This document shows positions 11,395-62,174 of a DNA stretch of 64,000 nt, in pieces. Source of the DNA: a bacterium (lineage in GTDB: Bacteria; Armatimonadota; Fimbriimonadia; Fimbriimonadales; Fimbriimonadaceae); NCBI GenBank assembly GCA_013823945.1, contig PNMZ01000005.1:1-64000 (forward strand). The letters are read 5' to 3'. Under the pieces are notes generated by a model. The model was not told where the DNA came from, made no database searches, and worked only from the letters and a program-made list of their open reading frames with translations. Position 1 is the first letter of the stretch, and each line of letters starts with the position of its first letter. The position numbers were made by a program, and so were the translations under genes.

Positions 11395-11422
11395 CCCCCT
11401 CTCCACTGACGCGGAGAGGGGG
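11395..11422. repeat. Palindromic G/C-rich intergenic repeat, copy 2
   Basis: Perfect 10-bp stem CCCCCTCTCC / GGAGAGGGGG with an 8-nt loop, followed by AACTTTT. It lies between prpC and the GT9 gene and could fold in RNA as a terminator. Confidence 0.65.
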
Positions 11423-31481: not shown

Positions 31482-31562
31482 GGGAGCCAGGATACTATGT
31501 TCAAAACGACAGGCTTCCTAGATGATGGAAATTTGACAACCCCTCCCGACCCTACGGGCCCA

Positions 31563-31582
31563 CCTCCCCAAACTTGGGGAGG
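31563..31582. repeat. Palindromic G/C-rich intergenic repeat, copy 3
   Basis: CCTCCCCAA facing TTGGGGAGG with a 2-nt loop, preceded by a second C-rich piece (CCCCTCCCGACCCTACGGG). Lies upstream of ubiX. Confidence 0.6.
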
Positions 31583-31677
31583 GAATATAAGCAACTTCTG
31601 CGGGTTACGTCCCGCTTAGTAGGGGGTTAGTTTGGCTTAGAATTGGGGCGGTTTGAGTTGATTAGACCTTGTTAACG

Positions 31678-42029: not shown

Positions 42030-42097
42030 GGCGTACTTTGGGTTGTGGATATATTGAGAAGCGAAGGGCCTTCGAACCCCGTGACCTCACCCACTGA

Positions 42098-42123
42098 CCC
42101 CCTCTCCATTAAAACGGAGAGGG
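42098..42123. repeat. Palindromic G/C-rich intergenic repeat, copy 4
   Basis: CCCCCTCTCC, the loop ATTAAAAC, then GGAGAGGG. Together with 16 nt of flank on the left (42082 onward) it matches copy 7 at 62131-62172 at 39 of 42 positions by eye. Confidence 0.8.
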
Positions 42124-43236: not shown

Positions 43237-43242
43237 ATTATG
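43237..43242 (-). promoter_or_regulatory. -10 box just before aroC
   Basis: CATAAT on the reverse strand, 8 nt before ATG 43228. It overlaps the pnuC stop codon, so aroC may also be transcribed independently of pnuC. Confidence 0.35.
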
Positions 43243-43951
43243 ACGGGTTGCTTTGGTTCATGCTGGCACGCCATTGGGCCATACCGATGAAGGCCATGAT
43301 AAGAAAAATGATGTAGAGAATTGCGGTGGGATAGTACTGACGATAGAAGAAGAGGGGGATGTAGATCAGGTTGGTGATGATCCAGAAGTGCCAGGACTGG
43401 AAGATTTTGCGGTTGGTGAGATATTGGGCGAGGAGACCGAATGTGGTTGTGGCCGCATCAATCCAGACGAACTGGCCCTTGACGGCTTGGAGAATTGCGG
43501 CGAGGAGGGGAATGAAAATGAGAGGGGTGAGGCCGACGATGATCCAGTTTTTGGGTTGGATGTGGGTGATGGGGAGGGATGACAAATTCCCCTCCCTAAA
43601 TCCCTCCCCAGAGGGGAGGGATTTAGATCTCCATTTGATCCAGCCATCGACGAGGTAGCCGGCGGTGACAAGCATTACGAAGAAGTCTCCATATTGTTTT
43701 GCTACAGTGAAGAAGTAGTAGGCGTAGGCGATGGCCCATATCAGGCCAACGGGGTAGTTGTAAGGGGATTCTTTGATAACGAGATAGACACCGACGACAC
43801 CGGAGACGAATCCGATGAGTTCGATACGGTTGTAGAAATCGGTGGGGACTATTTGGATGGGGAGACCGGGAGGGAGAGTTTGGGCGAGGATACAAATGAG
43901 ATAGGAAGCGGCACCGATGAGGGTGGCGATTTGCCAGGTGGTGAGCTTCAT
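43238..43951 (-). CDS. pnuC: PnuC-family nicotinamide riboside transporter with a repeat-derived insertion
   Basis: 237 residues, seven or so membrane helices. Landmarks: EWIGF-like IELIGFVSGVVGVYLVIKES, YPVGLIWAIAYAYYFF, GDFFVMLVTAGYLVDGWIKW and late DAATTTFGLLAQYLTNRKIFQSWHFWIITN, all typical of PnuC (NR uptake for NAD synthesis). Between the 3rd and 4th landmark, residues 110-118 are encoded exactly by the 27-bp palindromic repeat at 43598-43624, and a further repeat-like stretch follows. The reading frame is kept. This loop is cytoplasmic and variable in the family. Confidence 0.88.
   Translation of the reverse strand: MKLTTWQIATLIGAASYLICILAQTLPPGLPIQIVPTDFYNRIELIGFVSGVVGVYLVIKESPYNYPVGLIWAIAYAYYFFTVAKQYGDFFVMLVTAGYLVDGWIKWRSKSLPSGEGFREGNLSSLPITHIQPKNWIIVGLTPLIFIPLLAAILQAVKGQFVWIDAATTTFGLLAQYLTNRKIFQSWHFWIITNLIYIPLFFYRQYYPTAILYIIFLIMAFIGMAQWRASMNQSNPS
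43598..43624. repeat. Palindromic G/C-rich repeat, copy 5, in frame inside pnuC
   Basis: Perfect 12-bp stem AAATCCCTCCCC / GGGGAGGGATTT with a 3-nt AGA loop. A partial second unit (CCCCTCCCTAAA) lies next to it at 43589-43600. Length 27 bp, a multiple of three. Confidence 0.85.
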
Positions 43952-44168: not shown

Positions 44169-47100
44169 ATGTCCATTTCCAAGATTCATGAGTTTTCCGG
44201 TCGTCCTGTGACCCGGTTGTTGTGCACGGGCCTTGCGCTGGCGATGTTTTACAGCGCATCGGCTTTGGGGGTTGATAGTCTTGTCAAGGAAGTATCGGCG
44301 GAGGCTCAGCAGCGGTTTGAGCAGATTGCGCGTAAGCCTCGGGGGCATTACACAGAGTCGCCGACGAAGGTGTTCTATGGGGCGAAGCCGGGTCGTGATG
44401 AGATTGGTCGGGGTGGGATTTGGTCGCCGAAGCTGCGCGCGGATTTGGCGAAGGTTCGCCAAAAGGAAGATGCTGTTCGGCCCTGGTCGGAGCGAGAATT
44501 GCTCCTGTCTTTTACTCCAATTGTTGGCGCATTGATTGCGCAGTCTCAAGGTGGTGAGGGAGGATCTGGCGGCGGAGGATTGCCGGGTGAAGGTGGTGGT
44601 TCTGGCGGGGGAACAGGTGGCGGTGGCTCAGTAGGCGGAGGTGGGGGCGGCATTTCGGGGGATGGTGGTATTGGAGGAAGTAGTCTCAACACGAACACCG
44701 GTAACCGCCACGTGAGTTATCCGATAGTCGCATGGTCGGCGAGGGGAGATAGTGGTGTCAACTTCACGCTCCATCACAACTCGAAGGGTACGTACAGTTT
44801 TGATCTTGGAAAAGGATGGAGTCACGGTTATGACGTGAAAGTGACCCATACAGTGGGTTCTTCCGCAATTGTCCGATATGGCGACGGCACCGAGGTTCCT
44901 TATACGGAAACATCAGGCGTTTTCGACGCCCCTGTAGGAATTCACGATACGCTGGTCAAGAACAGTAATAACACTTGGACGATTACTTCCAAAGATCGTT
45001 CGAAGCTGGAATTCAATACCGCGGGAAGACTCGTCGCGGTCAAAGATGCCAATATCAATACGATTTCAATAGCGCGTGATTCTCTGCAGAAAATCACGAA
45101 TATTTCCGACGGGACGGGGCGAAGCCTTGCCTTTACTTACACATCAAGTGGACTTATTCAGACCATCACCGATCCAAGTTCGCGGGTATGGACTTTTGTT
45201 TACAATTCTAACAACGACATGACCGGGATTTCCTACCCGGTGTTGAATGGACAGACGCACGCGCGCACCTTTACATATGACTCACTCAGTAATATCCTGA
45301 CTGAAACGGATTTGAGGGGGAAAGTCTGGACGTTTTCGTACGACGCAGACGAACGCCTTACTAGTTTTTCGAACCCACTGGGGCAAGTTTCAACTTGGGT
45401 TTTTGGTTCGGCAGCGGTTACTTTCACTCAGCCGAATGGCAAGACGGTGGTTCACAACTATTCGAATGGCCTCATTGCGTCTAAAGTTGACCAGGCAGGT
45501 TTTAGCACGGCTTATGTCTATGATGCTGACCGGAATGTGACGAGCTTCACGGACAAGCGGGGAAAGGTGTGGACTTCGACTTATGACGCGAATGGGAACC
45601 GGCTGAGCAGTACGAATCCGCTCAGTAAAACGACAACTTACACATATTCTGCGGGGCATGATCTCTTGACGGTAACTGACCCGCTGGGGAATGTGAGCTC
45701 GTTTACTTACAGTACGACGGGGAATTTGTTGACGAGCGTTGACCCGCTTGCGCGGACGTCGGCGGTGATGACCTACAACTCGTATGGTGAGTTTGTGAGT
45801 GCAACTGATGCTCTGGGTCGGCAGTCTACCATTGCCTATAGCGGTCAGGGTGATGTTGTCCAGACGACGGCACCGGGGAATGTGAATGCCTGGGCGACTT
45901 ATGATGTGATGGGCCGGGTTTTGACTTCAACGGATGCGGCGGGGAATGTCTCGAGCATTGTTTATGATAATTGGGGGCGAGTGGATTCGGCTACGGAGCC
46001 GGGGGGTGCGGTTTCCTCGATTGACTATGACGCCGAGGGGAATATTGTTTCGGCGACAGATCCGCTGGGACGGACGGGGTCGCGGATTCTGGATGATCTT
46101 GGCCGAACCTTGAGCGCGACGAACGCGAAGAATGAAACCACTTCGTATGCTTACAACTCGGTTGGCTATGTGACTTCCATTACCAATGGCCGGGGGTTTG
46201 CCCGGACATTTTCTTATACCGACCGGGGGCAGGTTGCGAGTTTGACGCTTGCAGATGGTGCGGTTGAGAGTTGGGCTTATAACGGGAATGGTGAGACGAC
46301 GGCTTATGTGAATCCGCTTGGTCAGACAATTAATTATCTCTTTGACAATGCGGGGCAGATGACGGGCGTGGATTACCCGGTTGGACTGACGGACACATCG
46401 TTCAGTTATGACAACGCGGGCCGCCAAGTGGCGATGGTGGATGGGACGGGGACTTCGTCGTGGACATATAACGCGGCGGGTGAGATTACGGGCCTAAATA
46501 CTCCTCAAGGGAACTTGACTTATGCCTATAACCTGGCTGGCCAGATTTCGAGCATGGTGGATGTTGGGGTTGGTACGACTTCGACGAGCTATGATTCGGC
46601 GGGTCGGCCGGTTTCGGTGACGGACGCTTTTGGTGATGTGAGTTCTTATGTTTATGATTCGGCGGGTCGGCTTTCGCGTAAGAACAATCCGAACGGGATA
46701 TATGAGCTTTATGCTTATGACTCTCGGAACCGGGTGACGAGCATTGTTACGAAGAACTCTTCGAATGTGACTCTTCAATCTCGTTCCTATACATTTGATT
46801 TAGCTTCTCAGGTGACTCAGGTTGTTGAGGGGTCGTTGACGACGACTTACGGCTACGACAACATTGGGCAACTGACTTCGGAGACCAAATCTTCGGGCTA
46901 TTCGGCTTCATATTCTTACGATGCAAATGGAAACCGTCTGACGCGGACGGTCAATGGGGTTACGGAGAGTTACGCATATGATTCGGGGGACAAGCTCTTG
47001 TCGGTTACGGGTGGAAGTGATCCGCGAACGTTTGCTTATGATGCGGCGGGTCGGACGACGGGGATTGTTCGGAGTTCCGGGACGACGGCTTTTGGTTATG

Positions 47101-47990
47101 ACTATGAGTCTCGGGTGACGAGCATCACGAAGCCGGGTATGACCACCAACACATTCGCCTATAACGGTTTGGATACGCGGGTTGGGATGGTGGATTCTTC
47201 GGGGAGCAAGAGTTTTAAGCGGAACGGGGTTTATGTGACTGACCCGGTTTTGAGTGATGGGACAGCGAGTTTTACGCCTTCAGGTGAGGTTCGGGGTGGG
47301 GTGAAGACGACTTTCCACGCAGGCCTCAAGAACTCGGATATTCAGACGAATTCGGCGCAAGCTGTAGTTGCGAGCAAGGTGTATGACGCTTTTGGTAACC
47401 AGCTTTCTTCCACCGGAACCTGGGCAGGACAGTTCCAGTATGCAGGAAAGTTTGGTTACCAGCAGGATCCTGATTCTGGGTTGAAGCTACTCGGGCATCG
47501 GTATTACGATTCGAGTACGGGGCGCTTTCTAACACGTGATCCGATTAAGGATGGGCGGAATTGGTACGGGTATTGTAGCAATAATCCGGTTAATCGAGTC
47601 GACCCCAATGGTCTTATGAGCGCTCCATTGGTTGCATTTGAGTTGTTTGAAAAGGATCGTTTGAACTCCGGTGGGATACCCTTTGGTGGTCGAGGAAACT
47701 CTCCTTCAGATAGGGATGTACAAGAGAAACCGAATGGAAAGAAAGACTTTTGGGAATGGTTTAAAGGATTTTTGCCGACTGCTGCGGCCCCACCGCACGT
47801 AGGGGACGCAGCTGAGCCAATGGCGAAAATTCCGTATAAAGACATAGATGCAAAGAGACAAATTGAAAAAGACCTATATGATGAGACGAGTGGAGAAGAC
47901 AAGGAAGGAGACCCATTGACTTGGTATCAGGATCCCGAGAATCATAACGTACCATACATTCAAAGTTGGAACAAGAAGAAAAATAAATGA
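44169..47990 (+). CDS. Full-length Rhs-repeat protein with a C-terminal toxin-like tip
   Basis: 1273 residues. A Sec-type signal (RLLCTGLALAMFYSASALG) is followed by a soluble region, a Gly/Ser linker (about 127-175) and an FDLGKGWSHGYD region. The body is a long run of YD repeats (SYDANGNRLTRTVNGVTE, FAYDAAGRTTGI and many more) forming a hollow beta-shell. It ends with the conserved core GHRYYDSSTGRFLTRDPIKD and NPVNRVDPNGL (Leu1149). The last 124 residues form a tip of unknown activity (KDFWEWFKGFLPT, DLYDETSGEDKEGDPLTW). Its stop overlaps the next gene (ATGA). No T6SS genes are in the window. Confidence 0.92.
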   Translation: MSISKIHEFSGRPVTRLLCTGLALAMFYSASALGVDSLVKEVSAEAQQRFEQIARKPRGHYTESPTKVFYGAKPGRDEIGRGGIWSPKLRADLAKVRQKEDAVRPWSERELLLSFTPIVGALIAQSQGGEGGSGGGGLPGEGGGSGGGTGGGGSVGGGGGGISGDGGIGGSSLNTNTGNRHVSYPIVAWSARGDSGVNFTLHHNSKGTYSFDLGKGWSHGYDVKVTHTVGSSAIVRYGDGTEVPYTETSGVFDAPVGIHDTLVKNSNNTWTITSKDRSKLEFNTAGRLVAVKDANINTISIARDSLQKITNISDGTGRSLAFTYTSSGLIQTITDPSSRVWTFVYNSNNDMTGISYPVLNGQTHARTFTYDSLSNILTETDLRGKVWTFSYDADERLTSFSNPLGQVSTWVFGSAAVTFTQPNGKTVVHNYSNGLIASKVDQAGFSTAYVYDADRNVTSFTDKRGKVWTSTYDANGNRLSSTNPLSKTTTYTYSAGHDLLTVTDPLGNVSSFTYSTTGNLLTSVDPLARTSAVMTYNSYGEFVSATDALGRQSTIAYSGQGDVVQTTAPGNVNAWATYDVMGRVLTSTDAAGNVSSIVYDNWGRVDSATEPGGAVSSIDYDAEGNIVSATDPLGRTGSRILDDLGRTLSATNAKNETTSYAYNSVGYVTSITNGRGFARTFSYTDRGQVASLTLADGAVESWAYNGNGETTAYVNPLGQTINYLFDNAGQMTGVDYPVGLTDTSFSYDNAGRQVAMVDGTGTSSWTYNAAGEITGLNTPQGNLTYAYNLAGQISSMVDVGVGTTSTSYDSAGRPVSVTDAFGDVSSYVYDSAGRLSRKNNPNGIYELYAYDSRNRVTSIVTKNSSNVTLQSRSYTFDLASQVTQVVEGSLTTTYGYDNIGQLTSETKSSGYSASYSYDANGNRLTRTVNGVTESYAYDSGDKLLSVTGGSDPRTFAYDAAGRTTGIVRSSGTTAFGYDYESRVTSITKPGMTTNTFAYNGLDTRVGMVDSSGSKSFKRNGVYVTDPVLSDGTASFTPSGEVRGGVKTTFHAGLKNSDIQTNSAQAVVASKVYDAFGNQLSSTGTWAGQFQYAGKFGYQQDPDSGLKLLGHRYYDSSTGRFLTRDPIKDGRNWYGYCSNNPVNRVDPNGLMSAPLVAFELFEKDRLNSGGIPFGGRGNSPSDRDVQEKPNGKKDFWEWFKGFLPTAAAPPHVGDAAEPMAKIPYKDIDAKRQIEKDLYDETSGEDKEGDPLTWYQDPENHNVPYIQSWNKKKNK

Positions 47991-48205
47991 TCAATAAAAG
48001 GCCCGTTGGTTTTTTCCTTATCCTGATTGGACTACCCGGATTTTTTCATAGTTTGGCAAACTTTGAAGATGGGGACCACAGGGCATTCTATGGAAGAGAT
48101 GGGGATGGTGACCCTTCTGAACGATCACGGATTGTGTTCGGAATTAGTACCAGTATCATAATAGTTGGAGGATATCTATTAATAAAGGGAGATGATGAGG
48201 CGTAG
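47987..48205 (+). CDS. Small two-helix membrane protein, candidate immunity protein
   Basis: 72 residues, ATG overlapping the Rhs stop by 4 nt. Two hydrophobic helices, GFFLILIGLPGFFHSLA and RIVFGISTSIIIVGGYLLI, with an acidic loop (EDGDHRAFYGRDGDGD) between. Immediate position after an Rhs tip and low G+C are what suggest an immunity role; no family is recognised. Confidence 0.55.
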   Translation: MINKRPVGFFLILIGLPGFFHSLANFEDGDHRAFYGRDGDGDPSERSRIVFGISTSIIIVGGYLLIKGDDEA

Positions 48206-48626
48206 ACAAATTATAATAGCCTTTTTAGTGGTGATTATTGTGAGCGCATTATTTTGGTGGCACGATTTCCATATTGGCAGAATTGAGAGACGATATTTGG
48301 AGGCAATAGAAAATTCAGCGACTCGTCTAAGTGCGGCATCAGGAATTAGTCAAGAAGAAAAATTAGAATTGTTGCATAGGACTGAAGTGGAATTCAATGA
48401 ATCGATCTTTGGTTTAGCACAAGAATTTGAGAAGATTCAATTTAGGATTCTGCCTGGGTATAAGTTGTCAAGACTTAAGGGGTTGATTAAAAAAGAATTG
48501 GAATTTTCAACCAGGCGTTCACAAATATATGGCAATAATAAAAATTATTTATCAAAAGAAGAAATCGAAATGCTGCATAGTATTCATGGGAAAACGGAAG
48601 ATGTTCGTAAAAGTTACTTCGATTAA
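48192..48626 (+). CDS. Single-pass membrane protein, second immunity candidate
   Basis: 144 residues, ATG 48192 overlapping the previous gene by 14 bp. One membrane helix (QIIIAFLVVIIVSALFWWHD), then a mostly helical, Glu/Lys-rich domain. A+T-rich, unlike the Rhs body. Either protein, or both, could protect against the tip of the full-length Rhs. Confidence 0.55.
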   Translation: MMRRRQIIIAFLVVIIVSALFWWHDFHIGRIERRYLEAIENSATRLSAASGISQEEKLELLHRTEVEFNESIFGLAQEFEKIQFRILPGYKLSRLKGLIKKELEFSTRRSQIYGNNKNYLSKEEIEMLHSIHGKTEDVRKSYFD

Positions 48627-48872
48627 TTGATGAGTTATTATGGAGAAGAAGTTACATGAATTTCGGGCGATGTGCATCAGTAAGGTTTATCGCCAGTATT
48701 GCATGCATTAACTATTCAATAGTAATTTATAAAGAGAATTAAGGGTATTAAGGTAACTATTCTAATTATCGTCGGTATTTGGGTAGGTTGTTGCGAGGAA
48801 TAGCGGAAATTCTGCGAGAACATTCCAAATGGGACGAATGAGGTCTATTCTTATGATGCGAATGGGAACAGG

Positions 48873-50117
48873 TTGACGAGAACAGTCAATGGGGTGACGG
48901 AGAATTACTCCTATGACTCTGGCGACAAGTTACTTTCGGTTACGGGGGGCAGTGATCCGCGAACGTTTGCCTATGATGCGGCAGGTAGAACGACGGGGAT
49001 TGTTCGGAGTTCTGGGACGACGGCTTTTAGCTATGACTATGAGTCTAGGGTGACTTCGATTACGAAGCCGGGGATGGTAACGAATACGTTTTCGTACAAT
49101 GGTCTCGATACCCGGGTTGGGATGGTGGATTCTTCGGGGAGTAAGAGCTTCAAGCGGAACGGGGTTTATGTGACCGACCCGGTTCTGAGTGATGGGACGG
49201 CGAGTTTTACGCCGAGTGGTGAGGTTCGGGGTGGAGTTAAGACGACTTTCCACGCTGGTTTGAAGAACGATGATGTTCAGACATCTAGCTCGCAGACGAT
49301 TGGCGCGGCGAAGGTGTTTGATGCGTTTGGGAATGAATTGTCTTCGACGGGGGCTTGGAAGAGTCAGTTTGGTTATGCCGGGAAATTTGGGTATCAAACC
49401 GATAGCGATTCTGGGTTGAAGCTGCTCGGGCATCGGTATTATGATTCTTCTACTGGTCGCTTTCTGACGCGTGATCCGATTAAGGATGGGCGGAACTGGT
49501 ATGCGTATTGTGGGAATAACCCTATCAGTCGAGTCGACCCTAATGGTCTTGAGGCTGTTTTGGTTCAGGGCGATGTAGATTTCTTTGGTGGGATGGGCGA
49601 TCACCTTTCGACTGGTGGAGTGCTTCCCGGGTTATTGAAAGATCGTAGTATGACGCGGTTTGTCCGTCGTTGGATTGGTGTTGACGACCAGATTGACTAT
49701 GGTTCACGTGCTTATCGAAATGGTGAGATAGCCGGGATAATATTGGAGCTTGCGATGCCGCTTCCGCCGGCGGCATCTGCACTGAAGGGACTCAGAAGGG
49801 TCAAGCATGCGGAAATGCTTGAGCCACCAACGACTAAATTCATTGGAGGTAGACGGGGCGGATTCCAACATCGTCAAGCCGTAGAACATGCAGAAAAGGA
49901 CTTTAAGGAAAGCGGATTTACGCATCTTTCAGGTGGTTCTAGGCCGGAAAAAATGTATGGAAGAAGATATCCAGATTTGGTTTTCTCGAAAGATGGTCGA
50001 AAAACCTTCGTTCAGGTTGGTAAACTAAACAAAAATGGCACCCCGTTTGCGCGTGAGGTAGATGCGGCTGGTGACCTGGTTGAATTTGCGGATGTGATCT
50101 TCATACCGTATAATTGA
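48873..50117 (+). CDS. Orphan Rhs 3' cassette 2 with a PD-(D/E)xK-like nuclease tip
   Basis: The frame is open from 48804 but the first usable codon is a TTG at 48873, inside the Rhs repeats, with no ribosome site or signal peptide; it reads as a silent 3' fragment. From 48845 it closely follows the full-length Rhs (from about 46911) to NPISRVDPNGL. From 49551 the tip is new (188 residues): a pre-toxin helical part (GEIAGIILELAMPLPPAASA) and then a nuclease-type end, RRYPDLVFSKDG, FVQVGKLNKNGTPFARE, FIPYN. The usual acidic residue before xK is Gln here. Confidence 0.85.
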   Translation: MTRTVNGVTENYSYDSGDKLLSVTGGSDPRTFAYDAAGRTTGIVRSSGTTAFSYDYESRVTSITKPGMVTNTFSYNGLDTRVGMVDSSGSKSFKRNGVYVTDPVLSDGTASFTPSGEVRGGVKTTFHAGLKNDDVQTSSSQTIGAAKVFDAFGNELSSTGAWKSQFGYAGKFGYQTDSDSGLKLLGHRYYDSSTGRFLTRDPIKDGRNWYAYCGNNPISRVDPNGLEAVLVQGDVDFFGGMGDHLSTGGVLPGLLKDRSMTRFVRRWIGVDDQIDYGSRAYRNGEIAGIILELAMPLPPAASALKGLRRVKHAEMLEPPTTKFIGGRRGGFQHRQAVEHAEKDFKESGFTHLSGGSRPEKMYGRRYPDLVFSKDGRKTFVQVGKLNKNGTPFAREVDAAGDLVEFADVIFIPYN

Positions 50118-50124
50118 TCTGACG

Positions 50125-50631
50125 ATGTCCTGGTTCCATTTCATATGCGAAGCGGAGGAACTGCTCCCGATCTTGAACGAACAAGAGGTGAGAAGTAGAA
50201 TAGTTGGGTTTGGATTCTTGGGAAAGAACAAACGATCAACTCAGCTGGAAGACTTGGCAGACGCGCTACTCAATGGAGAAGTGTCAACGATATATTTTGG
50301 TATAGAGCCAGATCGTGGAGACAAAGAATTTCGGATGGTGAATGGTCGTTATGCGGGTATCTGCCACATGCTTATTCCAAGTATTACGGGACAGTCTGTC
50401 TTCCCTGGCAGTATTTCATATGATGACAAAGCTCTAGAATATGATTTTCCCCCTGCCGAAGAAGTTTTCAAACTGCTAAGGAAGAAGTTAAAGCGAGTTT
50501 GCCCACGCACATTGAGTGGTCATCAGACGTTCAGCGGTGGACTTCCTCGGGCTTCTGAGAAGGTATGGAAAGCGATATCCGAATGCGGTGGTGTGGACGG
50601 GCCGTTTAAAAGCAGGTACTTTGCAGAATAG
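50125..50631 (+). CDS. Candidate immunity protein for cassette 2
   Basis: 168 residues, 7 nt after the nuclease-type tip. Mixed alpha/beta, no membrane helix and no recognised family; contains EAEELLPILNEQEVRSRIVG and a Lys/Arg-rich C-terminal half. An Imm protein for a nuclease would be soluble, which fits. Confidence 0.6.
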   Translation: MSWFHFICEAEELLPILNEQEVRSRIVGFGFLGKNKRSTQLEDLADALLNGEVSTIYFGIEPDRGDKEFRMVNGRYAGICHMLIPSITGQSVFPGSISYDDKALEYDFPPAEEVFKLLRKKLKRVCPRTLSGHQTFSGGLPRASEKVWKAISECGGVDGPFKSRYFAE

Positions 50632-50746
50632 CTGCTGTGCTCAGAGTGACTTCTATATTCGATTCATTTAATAACTAATTCGCCTTTATATCATTGATAT
50701 CAACATATCTCGATCTTTCTATTCTTATGATGCGAATGGGAACCGT

Positions 50747-51898
50747 TTGACGCGGACGGTCAATGGGGTGACGGAGAGTTACTCTTATGATGCAGGGGAC
50801 AAGCTTCTTTCGGTTACGGGTGGTGCAGATCCGCGAACATTTGCTTATGATGCGGCGGGGCGGACAACGGGGATTGTTCGGAGTTCCGGGACGACGGCTT
50901 TTAGCTATGACTATGAGTCCCGGGTGACTTCGATTATGAAGCCGGGGATGGTGACGAACTCGTTCACCTACAACGGTTTGGATACCCGGGTTGGGATGGT
51001 GGATTCTTCGGGGTCGAAGAGTTTCAAGCGGAATGGAGTTTATGTCACTGACCCGGTTCTGAGTGATGGGACGGCGAGCTTTACGCCGAGCGGTGAGGTT
51101 CGGGGTGGGGTGAAGACGACTTACGGCTCGGCGCTCAAGAACTCGGATATTCAGACGAATTCGGTTCAATCTGTAGTTGCGAGCAAGGTTTACGATGCCT
51201 TTGGTAACCAGTTGTCTTCAACTGGATCTTGGGCCGGGCAGTTCCAGTATGCGGGCAAGTTTGGCTACCAACAAGATCCGGATTCTGGGTTGAAACTGCT
51301 GGGGCATCGGTATTACGATTCAAGCACGGGGCGGTTTTTGACTCGTGATCCAATTAAAGATGGGCGAAATTGGTATTCATATTGTGAAAATCGGTCAGTG
51401 GGTCACTTTGACGATGAAGGACTTCGGCCGGCGGTCTTGTACAAATTGGTTAGTAATGCTACAGATGAGATAATGAAGTGGGGAAAGACAATTGATGAAA
51501 AGAAGCGCTACACACTGAAATGGCTCGAAGAGAAAGGCGTCAGGCTTGAAGTAATATCAAAGTATGATACAGAGCAAGAATGCCTTTTAGATGAGAGGGA
51601 TCTTGAGTCAACGATGCCTGGACCATGGAATAACACAGACTGGGCTAAGAAGGCGAAAGAAAAGGGCTTTAAAGCGACGAATGCGATTGGGATTGGGTCA
51701 GCTGCAAATCATGCCAAGGAGCATAGAGAAGACATACGCAAGCATCAACCTGATCTGGAAAATATCAAGAATACGCCATTCTTGGTTTCTGAAGTTGTAT
51801 CTGTATTCGAGGGACTTGGTAACTGGATCAATGACCTTGGGGCAGATGTAGTTGGACACAGAATGCAAGCTCATGATGAGATGTTATCAGTAGAATGA
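50747..51898 (+). CDS. Orphan Rhs 3' cassette 3 with a GIY-YIG (URI)-like nuclease tip
   Basis: Rhs homology starts at 50720 at almost the same point as in cassette 2 (TATTCTTATGATGC). First usable codon is TTG 50747; there is no ribosome site or signal peptide. After the conserved core the linker reads HFDDEGL, a variant of DPxGL. The tip (157 residues from 51425) begins AVLYKLVSNATDEIMKWGKT, then KKRYTLKWLEEKG, ECLLDERDLES and GPWNNTDWAK. That order (Tyr, Lys-Trp-Gly, Arg, Glu, Asn) matches URI/GIY-YIG nuclease toxins of Rhs/CDI proteins. Long charged tail. Confidence 0.82.
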   Translation: MTRTVNGVTESYSYDAGDKLLSVTGGADPRTFAYDAAGRTTGIVRSSGTTAFSYDYESRVTSIMKPGMVTNSFTYNGLDTRVGMVDSSGSKSFKRNGVYVTDPVLSDGTASFTPSGEVRGGVKTTYGSALKNSDIQTNSVQSVVASKVYDAFGNQLSSTGSWAGQFQYAGKFGYQQDPDSGLKLLGHRYYDSSTGRFLTRDPIKDGRNWYSYCENRSVGHFDDEGLRPAVLYKLVSNATDEIMKWGKTIDEKKRYTLKWLEEKGVRLEVISKYDTEQECLLDERDLESTMPGPWNNTDWAKKAKEKGFKATNAIGIGSAANHAKEHREDIRKHQPDLENIKNTPFLVSEVVSVFEGLGNWINDLGADVVGHRMQAHDEMLSVE

Positions 51899-52338
51899 AT
51901 CAGCTACCAATCAAGATCATGCTTAGTGGGCGTCAGTATGGCCCACGACATAGCGATTTGGGTTTCAATGGTATGCAATTCAAATTCTGGCAAAATGTGT
52001 TTAGTAATCTGCCAGATCGTGAGTCCCCAGGACTGATACGGATCAGTTTCTTTTCCGAGGTGTCTGGCGAATTTGACCAAGATGAGATTGTTACCAGTGT
52101 AGGTAAGTCGAAAAGTTACGGCGACGATTTCTTTGGTGTTGAACTACATTTTGGGCCAGAGAATCATCTTCTCAGTAAGTCGGAGTATATGGTGAGATGG
52201 GTGAGTATGCTCAAAAAAGGGACTCGCAAGATCATGGCGACTTATGCAGACCGCTTGGCAGCGTTAGAATTGGATTTGGAGGAGTTGATTGCTCTTTACG
52301 ATCCGGCTTTGGAAGAAGTACTTATAACTTTGGACTAA
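51895..52338 (+). CDS. Candidate immunity protein for cassette 3
   Basis: 147 residues, ATG 51895 overlapping the toxin stop (ATGA). Acidic, soluble, alpha/beta; ends in an Asp/Glu/Leu-rich helix (ALELDLEELIALYDPALEE). Unrecognised. Acidity would suit binding a basic nuclease surface. Confidence 0.62.
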   Translation: MNQLPIKIMLSGRQYGPRHSDLGFNGMQFKFWQNVFSNLPDRESPGLIRISFFSEVSGEFDQDEIVTSVGKSKSYGDDFFGVELHFGPENHLLSKSEYMVRWVSMLKKGTRKIMATYADRLAALELDLEELIALYDPALEEVLITLD

Positions 52339-52424
52339 AGCCTGGGCACTCTGCGCTGCTGTTTCCTGGGGGGCGACAGTCGGTAGAGGTTTAGGGCTTC
52401 TCATTTGGTGGGGTTCGGGGTGGG

Positions 52425-53258
52425 GTGAAGACGACCTACAGCTCTGCGCTGAAGAACTCGGATATCCAGACGAATTCGGTTCAATCTGTAGTTGCGAGCA
52501 AGGTTTACGATGCTTTTGGCAACCAATTGTCGTCAACTGGAACCTGGGCGGGACAGTTCCAGTATGCGGGTAAGTTTGGCTACCAGCAGGACGCAGATTC
52601 TGGGCTGAAACTTCTTGGGCATCGGTACTATGATTCGAGTACGGGTAGGTTTTTGACTCGTGATCCGATTAAGGATGGGCGGAACTGGTACTCGTATTGT
52701 GAAAATAGTCCACTTAAAAATGTCGATCCTAAGGGACTTGCGCTTGAAACCGCAGCGGACTTAGTTTCTTTAGCAGTTGACGTTGTCGATGTTATCGCGA
52801 ACCCTTACAACCCCTGGGCATGGGCGAACCTCACATGGTCGGTAGTTGCAGTTGCGGTTCCGGGGGTGCCTGGTTCATACGTCGGAAAAGCGATTAAGGG
52901 TGGGAGTCAGGTATCCGAAGGCTTTCGCACGACGACGGTGATTGTGAAGATGGACGATTTGGCGGAAGCTGGCTATGATATTAGCAAGTACTCCGGTAAG
53001 GGGGGTAAAATGCGCCAAGGCCAAGATGTTCACAAGTTCATTCAGAAGCAGATCCCTGAAAGTGCTGATTTGAAAACAGAATTTGGAATATCTGGAGGAA
53101 GGATTGACATTATTGATCTCATCAAGCGTGAAATTCATGAGATTAAGCCAAACAATGAGCAGGGGATACGGCGTGGTGTCAATCAGCTAAATCGTTACGA
53201 AAAAGGTCTTGAAGATACTAATTGGGTCAAACACTTGGTCCTTTTCACATTGGAGTGA
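52425..53258 (+). CDS. Orphan Rhs 3' cassette 4 with PD-(D/E)xK nuclease tip
   Basis: Rhs similarity starts at about 52411, further into the repeats than cassettes 2 and 3. First usable codon is GTG 52425, with no ribosome site; a TAG lies upstream. The core ends in NVDPKGL. The tip (172 residues from 52740) has a hydrophobic pre-toxin part (LVSLAVDVVDVIANPYNPWAWANLTWSV, about residues 110-137 of the frame) and then GQDVHKFIQKQIPES, EFGISGGRIDIIDL and EIHEIKPNNEQ. Asp and Glu-x-Lys are in the order of the PD-(D/E)xK restriction-endonuclease fold. Confidence 0.82.
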   Translation: MKTTYSSALKNSDIQTNSVQSVVASKVYDAFGNQLSSTGTWAGQFQYAGKFGYQQDADSGLKLLGHRYYDSSTGRFLTRDPIKDGRNWYSYCENSPLKNVDPKGLALETAADLVSLAVDVVDVIANPYNPWAWANLTWSVVAVAVPGVPGSYVGKAIKGGSQVSEGFRTTTVIVKMDDLAEAGYDISKYSGKGGKMRQGQDVHKFIQKQIPESADLKTEFGISGGRIDIIDLIKREIHEIKPNNEQGIRRGVNQLNRYEKGLEDTNWVKHLVLFTLE

Positions 53259-53262
53259 AGCA

Positions 53263-53733
53263 GTGGACATAAAAAGATGGATCGTAAGCGAATTTAAAAG
53301 ACGTGGATTCAAGAAAAACGGTAGGATTTTTGAGAAGAGAGGAAATGAATCAACTCTTTGCGTTTCAACCCATAAGTCGAGATTTTCCCAGGATCATTTC
53401 ATAGATTGTGGAGTAATACTCGATGGATTTGTTCCTCGGGATAATCAGTACTCACATTTCTGGTCGATTTTTTGTAGAATAGAGGATATTTTTGCTGATT
53501 CAGAGAAACGTTCAATTATTAATTCTGCATTAGATGGTGAGGTGGTGATGGTGGATGTGGAGCGCCAGAGAATCGTTTTCAAAGCGCTTGATGAGATGGA
53601 GCGACGGATGGAAGAAGAGTGGTCGAACCGCGAATGGATGGTTGCCCACGCTCCACTAAAGCACGTAGGAGGTTTTCATTTTAATGAGAGATTTGTGAAA
53701 GAGTGTATTAATAGTCGTGAGAATATGAGCTAG
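53263..53733 (+). CDS. Candidate immunity protein for cassette 4 (DUF4304-like)
   Basis: 156 residues from GTG 53263, preceded by GGAG 7 nt upstream. The start DIKRWIVSEFKRRGFKKNGR, FEKR and STHKSRFSQDHFIDCGVIL match the DUF4304 pattern: a helix, LGFKKxG, then an xxQKSRFxxxFxINxGI-type strand (Gln replaced here by His). DUF4304 proteins often sit next to polymorphic toxins. Confidence 0.65.
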   Translation: MDIKRWIVSEFKRRGFKKNGRIFEKRGNESTLCVSTHKSRFSQDHFIDCGVILDGFVPRDNQYSHFWSIFCRIEDIFADSEKRSIINSALDGEVVMVDVERQRIVFKALDEMERRMEEEWSNREWMVAHAPLKHVGGFHFNERFVKECINSRENMS

Positions 53734-53763
53734 AGAATCCTCAAATTGGTATTCGCCGTTAAG

Positions 53764-53813
53764 ATTGTTTCAGCGATGGAGCCGCATGGGCGGACGGGTT
53801 CTCGGATTCTGGA
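53764..53813 (+). other. Fusion scar between two Rhs segments
   Basis: 53764-53805 tracks positions about 46043-46090 of the full-length Rhs (encoding KIVSAMEPHGRTGSRILD versus NIVSATDPLGRTGSRILD). From GATTCTGG onward it tracks 47472 and beyond. The 8-bp GATTCTGG is shared by both source positions (46085-46092 and 47472-47479), and 1387 bp between them is absent. The upstream frame ends at TGA 53814-region, so the join is not in frame. Confidence 0.75.
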
Positions 53814-54539
53814 TTGAAGCTACTCGGGCATCGGTATTATGATTCTTCTACTGGTCGCTTTCTGACGCGTGATCCGATTAAGGATGGGCGGAATTGGTTT
53901 TCGTATTGTGAGAATAATCCCGTTTCATTTTATGACAGTGAGGGACTTGCACCTACTACTTTGGTAATAATGGGAAGTTCCTACCCTCCGTTGTGGCCCG
54001 TAATCATAGTTGGGGCTGTTATTTTCCTCGTCGTTGCAGGAATCTATTACCTCGTCAAAACCCCACCAGCGGAACCTAAATCAGAACCAACTTCTGGAAC
54101 AAGAACGCAGCTTCCTAAAACAATGGATCCCACTTCTACAAATAGTGCACCGAGCGGAGGGCCATCAGATCAGCCTGGAAATGATCGCGGTTCTTCTTCT
54201 CCCCTGGTCTATCCTGGGAGCCCCAACGAGGACGGTAGTCACTGGGTGTCTAGAGTTGTCGCAGAAAGAGAAGAAGCTGCCATTCGGTATAGAGGTGGAC
54301 GCCTAGGTTATGGTGGAACTTATGATATTGGAACATCTTTTTGGACGCATTACTCCGATGCTGAAAGATACAAAGAGAGAACCAAGGATATTCCTGGATT
54401 TGGCCAATCAATCTGGGGTTGGAGAATAAAGCCAGGCACAGGATATCCTGGGCCTCCAATGGACAATAGTAACTTCCCAACTTGGACAATTCCAATAAGT
54501 CAATTTCCTCTTGTCGGCCCTGGTGTAAAATTCAGGTGA
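53814..54539 (+). CDS. Orphan Rhs 3' cassette 5 with a toxin tip of unknown type
   Basis: Only about 45 residues of Rhs core are left (GHRYYDSSTGRFLTRDPIKD to FYDSEGL), beginning at TTG 53814 right after the fusion scar; no ribosome site. The tip (196 residues from 53949) has a membrane helix (LWPVIIVGAVIFLVVAGIYYLV), a Pro/Ser/Thr-rich spacer, then a globular end: HWVSRVVAEREEAAIRYRGG, YDIGTSFWTHYSDAERYKER and WGWRIKPGTGYPGPP. The GTSxWTHYSxAxxY segment weakly recalls ADP-ribosyltransferase-type toxins; I do not assign it. Confidence 0.75.
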   Translation: MKLLGHRYYDSSTGRFLTRDPIKDGRNWFSYCENNPVSFYDSEGLAPTTLVIMGSSYPPLWPVIIVGAVIFLVVAGIYYLVKTPPAEPKSEPTSGTRTQLPKTMDPTSTNSAPSGGPSDQPGNDRGSSSPLVYPGSPNEDGSHWVSRVVAEREEAAIRYRGGRLGYGGTYDIGTSFWTHYSDAERYKERTKDIPGFGQSIWGWRIKPGTGYPGPPMDNSNFPTWTIPISQFPLVGPGVKFR

Positions 54540-62060: not shown

Positions 62061-62146
62061 GAAAGGCAATTAGCGATTCTGAGTTAGGCGAAATACTCTT
62101 CAGTTTCTAATTTCTATTTGCGAGGAATAATGACCTCACCCCCTAG

Positions 62147-62174
62147 CCCCCTCTCCATTAAAACGGAGAGGGGG
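62147..62174. repeat. Palindromic G/C-rich repeat, copy 7
   Basis: Perfect 10-bp stem CCCCCTCTCC / GGAGAGGGGG with loop ATTAAAAC, then TTTT. With its 16-nt left flank it nearly equals copy 4. Confidence 0.8.

Follow-up and report, generated by a model that had tools for sequence, protein, structure and literature searches.

REP-like palindromic repeats within reading frames of a Fimbriimonadaceae bacterium: the copy in pnuC

Palindromic repeats that sit in frame within genes are known from Rickettsia and a few other bacteria; the RPEs of Rickettsia occupy many unrelated genes that still read open (PMC10969869). For the GTAG and CGTC superfamilies of REPs, intragenic copies are described by Di Nocera 2013 (PMC3733652); the available part of that source includes tRNA synthetases among the genes hit, with several insertions per gene, and the hosts reported there do not include Armatimonadota. 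The locus considered here lies in a window of 64,000 nucleotides (the whole stretch of DNA analysed) from a bacterium of that phylum. In its pnuC gene, a REP-like copy has most probably (probability about 0.85) been inserted into a loop, is read through in frame and persists as a tolerated, neutral spacer; the same would hold for copies in other genes. The range of in-frame palindromic insertion thereby comes to include, beyond Rickettsia and the Proteobacteria-type REPs, a distant phylum, with a genome of 3.2 Mb. Species pairs are close enough for gain, decay and tolerance to be visible in single-copy essential genes, and therefore a comparative test is possible of whether the repeats are a source of new protein segments or are merely survived by their hosts.

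The element in pnuC

The gene pnuC (43238–43951, minus strand) encodes a protein of the nicotinamide riboside/NMN transporter family (Pfam NMN_transporter, E 3.4e-39; solved relative 4qtn). Read directly from the letters, the core of the element (43598–43624, minus strand) consists of AAATCCCTCCCC at 43598–43609, the loop AGA and GGGGAGGGATTT at 43613–43624. It forms a perfect 12-bp stem and encodes residues 110–118, exactly as the first-pass annotation had placed it. Once the CTA/TAG pairs are counted, the perfect stem grows to 14 bp around its 3-nt loop, and the computed fold of the hairpin as RNA is −25.6 kcal/mol. On the coding strand the order is CTAAATCCCTCCCC-TCT-GGGGAGGGATTTAG-GGAGGGGAAT, starting at ∼43626 and ending near 43586. 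The whole element thus covers ∼43586–43626 (minus strand), since 43586–43597 is its own 3′ tail (AGGGAGGGG). Neighbouring repeat-like sequence had been thought to add further residues, which is incorrect: 43570–43580 is native pnuC sequence, because the encoded Leu-Pro-Ile-Thr occurs in insert-free homologues. Elsewhere in the window, positions 44169–53950 hold an RHS/YD-repeat gene followed by repeated cassettes of ∼1.9 kb that are 75–86% alike.

Among 18 aligned PnuC homologues, the insert segment is common only to the genome under study (G000) and its sister species G006 (Armatimonadetes bacterium Uphvl-Ar1, CP021423.1), which bears out the reading of an insertion. Following GWIKW, the loop is 18 residues long in both species, 13 in G007 and 8 in G002–G005 (G001–G007 being the genus members compared). 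The net gain over the 8-residue loop is 30 bp (10 codons), which preserves the frame and leaves the gene open throughout. The copy would have entered the pnuC loop in the common ancestor of the two species; in G006 the palindrome is lost, its second stem arm having decayed. The insert peptide is hydrophilic, rich in Gly, Pro, Ser and Glu, and lies between two predicted transmembrane helices. An AlphaFold model computed from two sequences places residues 110–133 outside helices, with a mean pLDDT of 42.7 that is too poor for more.

If the segment were a functional part of the protein under selection, such as a regulatory loop, this could explain why it has persisted since before the split of G000 and G006; in the solved PnuC 4qtn, too, a long loop occupies this place. 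Against this, 9 of the 18 loop residues differ between the two species, as opposed to 18 of 219 elsewhere in PnuC. The pN/pS ratio of the loop is 0.76, near the level of neutral sequence (an estimate from small counts, 18 codons and 13 changes), versus 0.15 and 0.04 in the flanking parts. Selection for function is accordingly improbable. Near-absence of protein-level constraint, together with loss of the palindrome in G006, makes the segment look like a tolerated spacer and not a new function. The proposal that such repeats create new protein segments therefore stands as far as open reading frames go; usefulness is another matter, and the relaxed constraint in pnuC argues that the insert peptide is probably just tolerated.

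The repeat family and its in-frame copies

The element belongs to a family of ∼40–45 bp units, each a GC-rich hairpin followed by a G-rich tail. After merging, a profile search of 2.82 of the 3.16 Mb of the genome (89%) yielded 82 copies at E<0.01, or 72 at the stricter E<1e-3; the reversed-genome control gave 1 and 0. The exact core pattern CCCTCCCCN{2,8}GGGGAGGG has 59 matches in the genome and the reversed pattern none. With such contrasts to the controls, the pnuC palindrome is not a chance occurrence. Four subfamilies share the hairpin and the G-rich tail, and A and B subfamilies are distinguished by a matched C–G to T–A change in the stem (50 copies with CCCTCCCC/GGGGAGG, 14 with CCCTCTCC/GGAGAGG). 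Across the genus the core copies are unevenly distributed: 59 in G000, 56 in G006, 43 in G003, 34 in G005, 20 in G004, 3 in G007 and, by exact-pattern search, 0 in G001 and G002.

The family resides mainly between genes, in agreement with the first-pass annotation. The other copies in the window all lie between called genes: the profile search places subfamily B copies at 42082–42123 and 62132–62172 and a subfamily A1 copy at 31532–31583 (all minus strand), and the exact pattern matches a B hairpin core at 11396–11420. In the genome, 22 of 82 copies are gene-internal, versus ∼73 expected at 89.5% coding density (binomial p ∼1e-40 if copies count as independent, an assumption that tandem copies violate). 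Short hairpin, high copy number and mainly intergenic location make this a REP-like short palindromic repeat family.

In-frame copies elsewhere in the genome, which the first-pass annotation suggested looking for, do exist: 15 recognisable genes, pnuC included, carry them. These are argS, pheT, ftcD, pnuC, an APH-like kinase, NFACT/RqcH, two FHA proteins, a purple acid phosphatase, the CCA-adding enzyme, a sugar ABC ATPase with three tandem copies, a CT_C_D (PxpB-like) protein, two CrtI-like oxidases and one amidohydrolase. Domain identity is Pfam-checked in 13 of the 15; the last CrtI-like protein and the amidohydrolase, where the copy is near the C terminus, are named from sequence only. In ftcD and NFACT, matches to homologues break at the insert, as judged from match coordinates. 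All three forward frames of the element are read in genes (SLPKLGEG, FPPQDWGG and SPSLGRVREG), and copy orientation follows gene direction in 15 of 18 ORFs, or in 13 of 15 when three doubtful ORFs are set aside (p ∼0.007 in both cases). Those three, left out of the list, are C4 192030 and C4 190182, where the probable start lies downstream of the copy, and the very short C7 82816. The list itself comes from a greedy ORF caller followed by reading by eye; the caller is crude (aroC was placed on the wrong strand) and reports open frames only. Codon-score filters of 0.1 on 1.66 Mb and 0.08 on 2.82 Mb gave 5 and 8 gene loci, respectively, both missing genes with long repeat-rich flanks. Frame-breaking insertions are invisible to open-frame calling and copies are strongly depleted in genes, so an 'always in frame' rule is partly a matter of ascertainment. 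Insertions would recur in genes, and selection probably removes most of them, which would account for the mainly intergenic location.

Two of these loci have features of their own. At G000:C4:151657–151796, the three head-to-tail copies encode a repeated 16-residue unit between the ATPase halves of the sugar ABC transporter protein. At G000:C2:133079–135265, a single open frame joins a DUF559 domain (residues 1–95) to the CCA-adding enzyme (from residue 205) with the element in the linker, possibly a gene fusion or a mis-set start.

The palindrome in pnuC might also have arisen in place from ordinary coding sequence, through point mutations or a local duplication, its family likeness being convergence. 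There is a resemblance between one stem arm and the native codons immediately downstream (SLPI: TCCCTCCCCATC), so that a local inverted copy is conceivable. Yet the pnuC copy has the family tail AGGGAGGGG in addition to the hairpin, the segment is added with native codons unaltered, and the family is also in frame in unrelated genes. An origin in place is, on this evidence, quite improbable.

Essential genes and the mobility of the elements

Insertion of a family member is the reading that argS and pheT also illustrate. The clearest case is argS, which has three insert sites, with contents that differ by species; insert-free ArgS homologues exist. Site 1 comes after the match to the N-terminal domain, site 2 in a gap between Pfam matches, and site 3 inside the DALR_1 match. 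At site 3, a 45-bp B element is present in G003 and absent from G005, with matching flanks; the corresponding position holds an A element in G000 and two B-type inserts in G006. This clean 45-bp pair, the one clean empty site found, shows recent gain or loss. In pheT, five relatives have 677 codons; the gene is longer in G000 (694 codons, with an A1 copy) and in G006 (692, with a B copy), and both copies sit at one codon position (pheT homologues judged from match coordinates). Mobility of the repeats, suggested from the pnuC copy, is thus supported at two levels: by presence versus absence at argS site 3 between the close species G003 and G005, and by the finding, in pheT and in argS, of members of different subfamilies where the codon position is shared. 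It is tempting to propose, tentatively, that a small set of loops in essential proteins (argS sites 1–3, the pheT site and the NFACT site) may be recurrent landing sites for different subfamilies, where independent insertion, accumulation and decay in each species would keep supplying the core translation proteins of the genus with new loop peptides.

Other observations in argS concern the surrounding sequence. Beside the element at site 1 (L003 ∼1540–1590) is a second, different palindromic repeat of the CCCCGCCTACGTGGGGATGAC type, encoding RHPHVGGDPALE. Between G003 and G005 (L181 and L183) the flanks are common and the middles unrelated and unequal, at approximately residues 215–380 of the G003 protein. 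In G006 the sole argS found has frame changes at both multi-element sites (L200 ∼1430–1520 and L184 ∼1510–1620), which adjoin C7, C8 and G8 runs and may reflect assembly error, slippage or something stranger.

As to how the palindromes originate or are copied, replication slippage or template switching could also be responsible, which counts against the favoured reading. Least probable is that inserts go untranslated by ribosome bypass or RNA processing, as with byp elements: the G006 ArgS frame shifts, lethal if read plainly, would fit, but the homopolymer runs there are where sequencing indels are expected, and the argS frame is kept across inserts in G000, G003, G004 and G007, for which bypassing has no need.

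Inserts of elements that probably move, and are probably translated, are the favoured reading. No PF01797 protein (Y1 transposase) was found in the G000 genome, which speaks against a resident RAYT. Two Y1-type genes are present in each of the copy-rich relatives G003, G005, G006, G014 and G017; G004 has copies and no Y1 gene, and several genomes have a PF01797 protein without these repeats. Copies lie within 5 kb of one of two RAYT loci in G003 and in G005 (p 0.01 and 0.02, within a span of 0.01–0.03, for distances chosen after the positions were seen and, in G005, a list of 32 of 34 copies). Near the Y1-type genes of G014 there are no elements, and no RAYT gene was seen directly flanked by an element. 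Mobilisation by RAYT is therefore a weak lead, a post hoc link in relatives. The leading candidate for the mover would still be a Y1 transposase of RAYT type, active either formerly or in trans.

Comparison with known repeat systems

Several known families were considered. The GTAG tag stands at the hairpin foot in 2 of 66 copies (1.5 expected). The CGTC superfamily is defined by a tag directly at the hairpin plus a CCA-like tail; here CGTC is weakly present (10 of 66, 3.4 expected), apart from the stem and mainly in subfamily A2. Neither assignment applies. A RAYT-associated REP, with an element-flanked RAYT gene in the genome, does not fit G000 given its lack of PF01797, and the best Rfam matches to known RNA families fall far below gathering scores. 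The open-access literature on Armatimonadetes palindromic elements and Fimbriimonas repeats yielded no report of this repeat family, nor of in-frame insertion by it or in this phylum.

With RAYT-mobilised REPs and REPINs, the elements share the two Y1-type genes of each copy-rich relative; they differ in that G000 and G004 have copies without Y1 and the Y1 genes of G014 are not near elements. Like GTAG and CGTC REPs, as the available part of their description presents them (PMC3733652), they have the same size and hairpin, lie mainly between genes in tandem or convergent gaps, include a minority of intragenic copies, several per gene and in tRNA synthetase genes among others, and also occur as paired copies. 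Like the RPEs of Rickettsia, set beside them by description, they are in-frame palindromes in many unrelated genes whose frames stay open; RPEs are ∼150 bp long (PMC10969869), whereas the elements here are ∼40–45 bp and occur in a different phylum. Collectively, the family is new, and the type of event is one already known from intragenic REPs and Rickettsia RPEs.
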